Positions 33,252 through 33,905 of a DNA stretch of 64,000 nucleotides are shown here, piece after piece; the stretch's first letter is position 1, and every line of letters starts with the position of its first letter. Made by a program: the position numbers and the translations under genes. The notes beneath the pieces were generated by a model. It was not told the origin of the DNA and searched no databases. It was given only the letters and a program-made list of their open reading frames with translations. The stretch is from Spirosoma profusum (lineage in GTDB: Bacteria; Bacteroidota; Bacteroidia; Cytophagales; Spirosomataceae), in assembly GCF_014699005.1 (NCBI RefSeq), contig NZ_JACWZY010000005.1:62001-126000 (forward strand). Direction: 5' to 3'.

Positions 33252-33259
33252 TAAAAACG

Positions 33260-33335
33260 TAGTCATTGATGGTCAGGCATCGTCATTTATTAAAAACAAT
33301 ACCAATAAATGACGATGCCTGACCATCAATGACTA
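33260..33335. repeat. Perfect 32-bp inverted repeat between rsr and the Y RNA units
   Basis: Arms 33260-33291 and 33304-33335 are fully complementary over 32 bases (core CATTGATGGTCAGGCATCGT), with a 12-base A-rich loop. The left arm begins nine bases after the rsr stop. It could end the rsr mRNA, or be a processing site if the RNA units are made as part of the same transcript; no separate promoter consensus for the RNAs is visible. It belongs to the class of word-built intergenic palindromes. Confidence 0.85.
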
Positions 33336-33351
33336 CTAATGACAAGAAATT

Positions 33352-33496
33352 AAAACAGGATGTCGTAGAAGTGGGATACTTCGCACCATCAAAGGGGAGG
33401 AATGGCCATTATACAAGGCCATCTGACGGTCGGCCATCTGGTTCGACTCCAGCTAGCAATGCCCCGTTCCCATTTCGGCTGTTACTCCTGTTTTTT
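33352..33496 (+). ncRNA. Y RNA-like unit A
   Basis: About 145 nt. The ends pair: AAAACAGGA (33352-33360) with TCCTGTTTT (33486-33494), followed by a T run. Inside follows TGTCGTAGAA, six bases, TACTTCG on the 5' side and TTTCGGCTGTTAC on the 3' side, where GTCG can pair with CGGC. The upper stem is TGGGA (33372-33376) with TCCCA (33468-33472), then GGGG with CCCC (33462-33465). The head holds a hairpin ATGGCC/GGCCAT (33402-33422) and a tRNA-like T arm CTGG-TTCGACT-CCAG (33438-33452). Assignment rests on structure, the motif shared with units B and C, and the adjacent rsr gene. Confidence 0.82.
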
Positions 33497-33501
33497 AGCC
33501 T

Positions 33502-33646
33502 TAGCAAGTGCCGTAGAATAGAGTTACTTCGGATCATAACCTGGCGGTCGCTGGTTCGAATCCAGCCATCGGGAAATCACTTCCCAATGTAGCTCAGTGG
33601 GTAGAGCACCAAAACGTACTCTTTTCGCTTGTTGCCTTGCTATCTT
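33502..33646 (+). ncRNA. Y RNA-like unit B, YrlA-type tRNA mimic
   Basis: About 145 nt. Terminal stem TAGCAAG (33502-33508) / CTTGCTA (33636-33642). Shared motifs TGCCGTAGAA and TTCGCTTGTTGC. Upper stem GAGTTAC / GTACTC with one bulge. The head is a circularly permuted tRNA: T arm GCTGG-TTCGAAT-CCAGC (33550-33566), then an acceptor-like stem GGGAA/TTCCC (33571-33585) closed by loop ATCAC, then a textbook D arm GCTC-AGTGGGTA-GAGC (33592-33607). There is no free CCA end, and the Y stem takes the place of the anticodon arm. This is the architecture reported for YrlA RNAs of other bacteria. Confidence 0.88.
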
Positions 33647-33650
33647 TACG

Positions 33651-33800
33651 TACCAAAACCGGTGTCGTAGAACAGAAATACTTCGTGCCCCGTCTGGAGG
33701 TGATGATCAAATCCATCTCACTGCAATGCAGCGATAGTTCAATCTAGAACACCAGAGTGAAGTCTGTTCGGCTGTTGCCCGGTTTTGGTATTTTTCTTTT
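33651..33800 (+). ncRNA. Y RNA-like unit C, with terminator
   Basis: About 150 nt. The terminal stem is a perfect 12-base pairing, TACCAAAACCGG (33651-33662) with CCGGTTTTGGTA (33779-33790), followed by TTTTTCTTTT, so it also works as an intrinsic terminator for the array. Shared motifs TGTCGTAGAA, six bases, TACTTCG and TTCGGCTGTTGC are intact. The upper stem is CAGA(aata)CTTC with GAAGTCTG, then TCTGG / CCAGA (33693-33697, 33752-33756). The head differs from A and B: a small hairpin CTGC-AAT-GCAG and only a weak T-loop-like TAGTTCAATCTA. It probably binds a different partner. Confidence 0.82.
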
Positions 33801-33805
33801 GTGCT

Positions 33806-33905
33806 GATTTTTTTGTCATGCTGAAGTACGAAGCATCTTAAAGCATACGGACACTAAAATCAGGAAAGTTTAAGATGCTTCGTACCTCAGCATGACAAAA
33901 AAATC
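33806..33905. repeat. TGTCATGCTGAGG palindromic element, copy 2
   Basis: Arms of about 36 bases (33806-33841 and 33870-33905), core TCATGCTGAAGTACGAAGCA / TGCTTCGTACCTCAGCATGA, with A/T runs outside. It lies between Y unit C and the convergent amidase, whose stop codon is inside the right arm. Same family as 15087-15177 and 56136-56223. Confidence 0.85.

Follow-up and report, generated by a model that had tools for sequence, protein, structure and literature searches.

The Ro60 gene and its Y RNA array

The window analysed here, a stretch of 64,000 nucleotides from Spirosoma profusum, contains the gene of a Ro60 orthologue and, downstream of it on the same strand, three Y RNA units with the common ends GYCGTAG...ACTTCG and TTCGSYTGTT (Table 1). 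By profile search, TROVE is present in 22 of the 99 genomes searched, that of the window counted, and the Ro60 protein has no match to the PADLOC defence models at E ≤ 0.01. Unit 2, the subject of this study, starts about 250 bases past the end of the TROVE open reading frame (33251) and adjoins the Ro60 orthologue as YrlA-type RNAs do. Levitt pair, U-turn and tRNA numbering are used below as standard terms.

Table 1. Features of the Ro60 locus, in window coordinates
Feature	Position	Strand	Basis or detail
Ro60 orthologue (TROVE domain), 509 aa	31722..33251	+	Pfam TROVE PF05731, E 9.3e-31
Unit 1, sister Y RNA with T arm, without D arm, first in array	33353..33494	+	shared Ro-type ends
Unit 2, YrlA-type Y RNA, middle of array	33502..33646	+	Rfam match, alignment
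Unit 2: basal (Ro60-type) stem, 5' strand	33504..33524	+	helices 33504-33508, 33510-33511, 33520-33524
Unit 2: upper anticodon arm	33531..33541	+	30-31 = 33531-33532, loop 32-38 = 33533-33539, 39-40 = 33540-33541
Unit 2: 41-43 of anticodon stem	33542..33544	+	pairs with 33609-33611
Unit 2: variable loop CGGTC (44-48; G46, C48)	33545..33549	+	
Unit 2: T arm, loop TTCGAAT	33550..33566	+	Rfam match, 9-unit alignment
Unit 2: sealed acceptor stem	33567..33589	+	double changes in 4/8 scored pairs
Unit 2: 3' acceptor strand	33567-33575	+	
Unit 2: acceptor loop ATCAC	33576-33580	+	
Unit 2: 5' acceptor strand	33581-33589	+	
Unit 2: U8-A9 (33590-33591) and D arm (33592-33607)	33590..33607	+	Rfam match, 9-unit alignment
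Unit 2: A26 and 27-29 (CCA), lower 5' strand of anticodon stem	33608..33611	+	
Unit 2: basal (Ro60-type) stem, 3' strand	33618..33640	+	9-unit alignment
Unit 3, Y RNA without D arm, third in array	33654..33797	+	shared Ro-type ends

Compared with the Rfam YrlA model (RF02553), unit 2 gives a local match (23-87) of 32.8 bits, with E = 2.1e-5 in 461 bases and 9.4e-5 over the whole genome, where 150 of the 327 first-look candidates were scored and unit 2 is the sole match under E 0.1 among these 150. The score is below the curated gathering cut-off of 69 bits, which is a detection cut-off and not a trait of the RNA. At the permissive E ≤ 1, the same model has matches in 13 of 14 control genomes, none above the cut-off; in the other loci fetched for Ro60 genes, 3 of 19 matches reach 69 bits and 16 are below. 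We class unit 2, with its place behind a Ro60 (TROVE) gene, among the bacterial Y RNAs of the YrlA type.

Units 1 and 3 are probably of the same general sort as YrlB and other D-armless Y RNAs. The kind represented by unit 1 (window 33353-33494; loci L031, L035, L038 and L040-L044) stands at the head of the array in each of the nine loci seen from the genus; besides the T arm, which is disturbed in L038, it has a second hairpin that covaries and a closing GGGG/CCCC. When unit 1 was aligned over nine genus loci, that of the window included, RNAalifold predicted 25 pairs, 13 of them with double changes. A unit resembling unit 3 by eye is the last of the L042 array. We also observed another kind of Y RNA, with GATTGGTTGAAAG followed by a small hairpin and then a T arm, as the second unit of L038, L041 and L044 and the third of L040; judged by eye, its order resembles that of the D loop, variable arm and T arm of a tRNA with a long variable arm, and it is not permuted.

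Two palindromes flank the array. A near-perfect one (33255-33340) directly follows the Ro60 stop codon and has one other match in the genome, a partial one; in several other members of the genus a different hairpin takes its place. The other (33806-33904), with arms of about 40 bases, is a genome-wide repeat found in about 40 places, the count being based on 80 matches, mostly both strands of the same places, with 40 of 361 candidates scored. Matches to Rfam microRNA models in the flanks were rejected, all being below their own cut-offs and located on the palindromes.

The permuted fold of unit 2 and the place where it is opened

From the letters alone, the first-pass annotation had read unit 2 as a tRNA in permuted order, with the T arm, 3' acceptor strand, loop, 5' acceptor strand and D arm following one another. 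Sequence and alignment place all these elements at the coordinates it gave, and the circularly permuted fold, the sealed acceptor without CCA and the likeness to YrlA are supported by the Rfam match and the alignment. Joined by ATCAC, the acceptor strands leave no free CCA end; 8 of the 9 pairs of the sealed stem are formed, the mismatch being C33570/A33586. ARAGORN found no tRNA over the window. The ends of unit 2 form a long basal stem of 12 pairs, with 97.8-98.4% of cells paired and double changes in 6 pairs (4 of 7 and 2 of 5 in the nine aligned units, 33504-33524 with 33618-33640), which by its position and conservation is the putative Ro60-binding part.

To describe the rest of the fold, we aligned nine units: that of the window, seven from the genus and one from Fibrisoma. 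The structure tested on them was written by hand from the window's own unit, which tilts the test in its favour; 93.6% of cells are paired, against 34-44% when the structure is slid, and double changes that keep pairing affect 12 of 34 pairs, against 3.7 ± 1.4 by shuffling (0 of 500). Pairing is weakest, at 76.9%, in the helix formed by the lower anticodon stem and its D-side 29-41 pair: 28-42 is G-C in all nine units and 27-43 in eight, and the D-side A forms the third pair, 29-41, in 3 of 8. In the helix of the upper anticodon arm, 88.9% of cells are paired, with a double change in one of two pairs, and the 31-39 pair holds in 7 of 9 units. Base 33 is T in all nine, with the anticodons CAT (once), TTT, GTG, GAT and GTT (twice each). 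The 30 pairs that RNAalifold predicted for the same nine units belong to the basal, T, acceptor and D helices, both halves of the anticodon arm being absent from its structure; similarly, the minimum-energy fold of the whole of unit 2 includes neither the upper anticodon stem nor the lower anticodon pairs of our model.

In unit 2, the anticodon stem reads C27-G43, C28-G42, A29-T41, G30-C40 and G31-C39, and the loop of seven bases (33533-33539) is ATCATAA, or AUCAUAA in the RNA, with the anticodon CAT (CAU) at 33535-33537. U33, the purine at 37 and the loop length are those of a tRNA, and the upper stem in the window consists of just two pairs, both G-C.

The 5' strand of this stem is not continuous. 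Position 26 is taken by the first base past the D arm, and the two bases that follow it pair with 43 and 42, respectively; 27-43 and 28-42 are both standard in 106 of 114 Bacteroidota domains and in 42 of 52 others. For the upper pairs, 29-31 with 39-41, the 5' bases are supplied by the Ro-side strand, and the full set of five standard pairs occurs in 40 of the 114 and 24 of the 52 domains. The 5' side of the five-pair stem is assembled from two strands, with 27-28 (27-29 in unit 2) on the D-arm side and 29-31 (30-31 in unit 2) on the Ro side. Since both strands build the stem, the opening of the tRNA lies in the 5' strand of its anticodon stem and not at the anticodon, where the earlier reading had located the permutation; the permutation itself stands. 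That reading also had the free ends continue into the Ro-type stem, as they do, but in place of the anticodon arm, whereas their point of entry is inside the 5' strand of the arm's stem, and the loop of 7 bases exists. The hairpin's own 28-42 and 27-43 positions show no covariation in either set of domains described below, the D-side strand substituting for them, and for a 26-44 pairing we saw nothing clear.

The anticodon arm in relatives

Many relatives have a short hairpin in the stretch from the Ro motif to the T arm; its loop is, for instance, CTGTTAA, CTTTTAA, TTGTGGT or TTTGGGA. In a test that did not use the loop sequence and kept 152 of 178 domains, loops of 7 bases closed by at least three Watson-Crick pairs were found in 50 of the 152, against 16.7 ± 4.1 in 300 shuffles (maximum 33); among loop lengths of 3 to 12, enrichment is clear at 7 only. 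In 125 unique regions there are 37 such hairpins, one of them a misread T arm; 32 have T33 (background 0.32) and the loops of 10 are identical to a loop among the host's own tRNAs.

We also read these regions in register, counting tRNA numbering back from the T stem with no hairpin search, in the 99 of the 125 unique Bacteroidota regions with a length of 19-24 (24 of the other 26 are shorter). T33 is present in 77% of the 99 domains, a purine at 37 in 89%, A38 in 73%, G46 in 97%, T47 in 83% and C48 in 83%. Positions 29-31 covary with 39-41, Watson-Crick pairs being formed in 54/99 (31-39), 70/99 (30-40) and 52/91 (29-41) domains, with 0 of 2000 shuffles in each case, and 176 of 289 cells are paired in register against 44-72 when slid. 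At least two upper pairs, T33 and a purine at 37 occur together in 55 of the 99. The 15-48 Levitt pair, scored in the 125 domains, is G-C in 101 and A-T in 17 (118/125, 7 exceptions) and covaries (Fisher 6e-16).

Base 37 tends to follow base 36. Among 56 distinct T33 loops, 44 of which enter the table, G36 is followed by G37 in 18 and A37 in 7, and A36 or T36 by G37 in 1 and A37 in 18 (Fisher 8e-6); the rule is obeyed by 41 of 41 own tRNA loops, and 7 of the 25 distinct loops with G36 and a purine at 37 run contrary to it by carrying A37. Loops exactly equal to an own tRNA loop are weakly above chance (7/56; 32 of 1000 permutations), and the stronger test, which allows one mismatch, gives 36/56 (0 of 1000).

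For a second set we took the 80 best of 220 confirmed IMG/VR loci, added four named phages and eight loci from plasmids or Salmonella, and obtained 52 unique permuted domains with a sealed acceptor stem, from 42 of these 92 loci. The upper pairs 31-39, 30-40 and 29-41 are formed in 33, 35 and 29 of the 52 (0 of 2000 shuffles each), with 97 of 156 cells paired against 24-55 when slid. All three occur together in 25 domains, 23 of which have T33, against 9 of the 27 others (62% overall). The 15-48 pair is G-C in 36 and A-T in 9 (45/52), with A-C in 7 (Fisher 3e-6), and the 36-37 association is found again (Fisher 5e-4; 25 distinct loops, 21 of them in the table). Exact loop matches to own tRNAs number 4/25 (277 of 1000 permutations) and those with one mismatch allowed 19/25 (3 of 1000).

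The shuffles leave part of the shared ancestry in the anticodon-arm statistics. When redundancy was removed and all 169 domains were reduced to 90 representatives, all the results held. The upper pairs are formed in 51/90, 60/90 and 50/85, 27-43 in 75/90 and 28-42 in 77/90; p is 9e-7 for 36-37 and 5e-12 for 15-48 (11 exceptions), and T33 is found in 34 of the 37 domains with all three upper pairs, against 26 of the 53 others.

The anticodon arm is an optional part, formed by about half of the domains. The Salmonella YrlA (L165, a contig filed as phage), which is of the crystallised kind, does not have a good one, since it reads CC-TTGTAT-GG here, a two-pair hairpin out of register. This weak arm may be the reason why the anticodon arm escaped notice. 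Both L165 and L166 are short, are listed as contigs of Salmonella and Escherichia phages, and contain yrlB, yrlA and the last part of a Ro60 gene; they resemble host DNA.

Some arrays hold several domains. In Chryseobacterium, the DNA upstream of Ro60 has a tandem of two permuted tRNA-like domains, with T arm, sealed acceptor and D arm twice over (L142:60-260, L147:380-570, L152:390-580 and L153:140-340); directly after it comes a hairpin of five perfect pairs, CTACA/TGTAG, with a varying loop of 7 bases (CTGTCAC in L142 and L153, CTTTTAA in L147, CTATTAA in L152). A Cytophagaceae MAG has four successive YrlA-type units (L096:3100-4200), with the loops TTGTGGT, ATTTTAA, CCGACAC and ATGCTAA. 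In all five annotated Proteobacterial plasmid loci that we examined, Ro60 adjoins an rtcR-type gene, and in two of them the stretch contains rtcB as well. The Y RNA stretch of Xanthomonas sacchari had no match in E. coli genomes.

Origin, possible role and known systems

In the pooled 100 arms with T33 and at least two upper pairs we counted 31 anticodon triplets, led by GTT (15), CAT (13, many of them from close Chryseobacterium), TTT (9) and TGG (6). The stretch before the T loop, CATAACCTGGCGGTCGCTGG (33535-33554), had been taken as a sign that unit 2 derives from a real tRNA gene with a CAT anticodon. When compared with the genome's own tRNAs, unit 2 does match the initiator tRNA-Met best, with 28 of 34 bases from 32 to 65; best matches of at least 28 bases are found in 9 of 101 domains (unit 2 included). 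Outside the loop, this tRNA shares 22/27 bases and the Asn and Pro tRNAs 21/27 each; with orthologue anticodons that differ, recent derivation from a particular tRNA gene is unsupported. In a comparison covering 70 domains, the cognate tRNA proved only slightly closer than expected (percentile 0.630 against 0.584 ± 0.023; 15 of 500 permutations), own tRNAs being used for all species.

Comparison across relatives shows the whole predicted tRNA frame to be kept, and we consider it probable that unit 2 is a YrlA-type Y RNA with a whole, permuted four-arm tRNA body, serving as a tRNA stand-in held on Ro60. The acceptor is sealed by a short loop and, by comparison, the chain is opened where the basal stem exits. 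Because its acceptor end is closed and without CCA, such an RNA would be neither charged nor used in translation. In the simplest mechanism it would be folded, probably modified, and a partner of proteins with an affinity for tRNA bodies and anticodon loops, and might dock, occupy or decoy them for RNA handling directed by Ro60. The link of base 37 to base 36 suggests that these RNAs are seen by enzymes that read anticodon loops, or that such enzymes shaped the source of the RNAs.

Other explanations have to be weighed against this one. Unit 2 could be an ordinary YrlA, with the known tRNA-like body and Ro stem, in which the seeming anticodon arm is an irrelevant linker: Rfam treats the stretch as an insert in full-length matches, RNAalifold does not choose the arm, and many domains, the Salmonella YrlA among them, do without a good one. 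The enrichment at one loop length, the covariation, U33 and the 36-37 rule, found in two sets and after removal of redundancy, argue against a mere linker and make this reading unlikely. Recent capture and permutation of a real tRNA gene, that of the initiator tRNA-Met, would account for the 28/34 match; we rejected it as very improbable, since the match without the loop is barely above those of Asn and Pro and the orthologues carry UUU, GUG, GAU and GUU anticodons. Permuted tRNA genes that give working tRNAs are known in some algae, and the permuted order and full set of arms of unit 2 would fit such a gene, but the missing CCA and free acceptor end, the Ro-type basal stem, the acceptor linkers of widely differing length and the three ordinary CAT tRNAs already in the genome leave hardly any credit to this idea.

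It is also conceivable, if rather doubtful, that the arms with their variable anticodons are a decoy or sensor, a bait held by Ro60 for loop-cutting enzymes of host, plasmid or phage. The anticodons change among orthologues with the frame kept, and phages and viral contigs carry such domains. In the 13 loci with at least two arms, none of 15 anticodon pairs is a repeat, a weak point that chance can account for, with 1.0 expected (P 0.35). Work on the RNA repair operon of Salmonella suggested competitive inhibition by YrlA, and found YrlA uncut by the Salmonella anticodon nuclease (PMC7790460), but this YrlA is the one without a good arm. Change at 34-36 could also be neutral, and the present data do not separate selection from neutrality. 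That the arms are under selection and the arrays present changing anticodon baits on Ro60, which would protect tRNAs from anticodon nucleases or report these in the conflict between bacteria and phages, is a speculation to which we give limited weight.

Parts of this picture are published. The circular permutation of YrlA relative to tRNA has been described (PMC11472068, PMC13355120), and a permuted alignment of 6CU1 covers 91% of the reference tRNA; because of this coverage, part of the anticodon arm may already be occupied by something in 6CU1. A review gives the mimicry of YrlA as that of the D, T and acceptor arms and reports modification by DusA and TruB (PMC8394870), and a jumbo-phage review pictures RNA repair on a platform of TROVE proteins that have a tRNA-like partner. 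The YrlA passages in the papers covered by our search for YrlA with the anticodon, which did not extend to the primary YrlA papers, contained no description of the arm, so that the kept anticodon arm in YrlA-type RNAs can be called new only provisionally. With an arm that is kept, split in its 5' strand and provided with changing anticodons and a mostly correct base 37, Y RNAs would mimic the whole tRNA. Whether YrlA-type RNAs act as tRNA stand-ins then becomes testable, by modification of base 37, loop-mediated binding of tRNA enzymes and decoying of anticodon nucleases.

Unit 2 resembles YrlA (RF02553; PDB 6CU1) in adjoining Ro60 and in the succession of basal stem, T arm, sealed acceptor and D arm; the Rfam structure already has lower anticodon-stem pairs beside the D arm. 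What sets it apart from YrlA is the stem-loop of the anticodon, with U33 and CAU, in a stretch that Rfam treats as an insert in several copies. YrlB, present in L165 and L166, and the other D-armless Y RNAs also adjoin Ro60 and have a basal stem, but they are without a complete tRNA body. With tRNA itself, unit 2 shares all four arms, U8-A9, the 15-48 pair, G46, U33 and purine 37; unlike tRNA, it is permuted, closed at the acceptor, devoid of CCA and fused to a Ro60-type stem.
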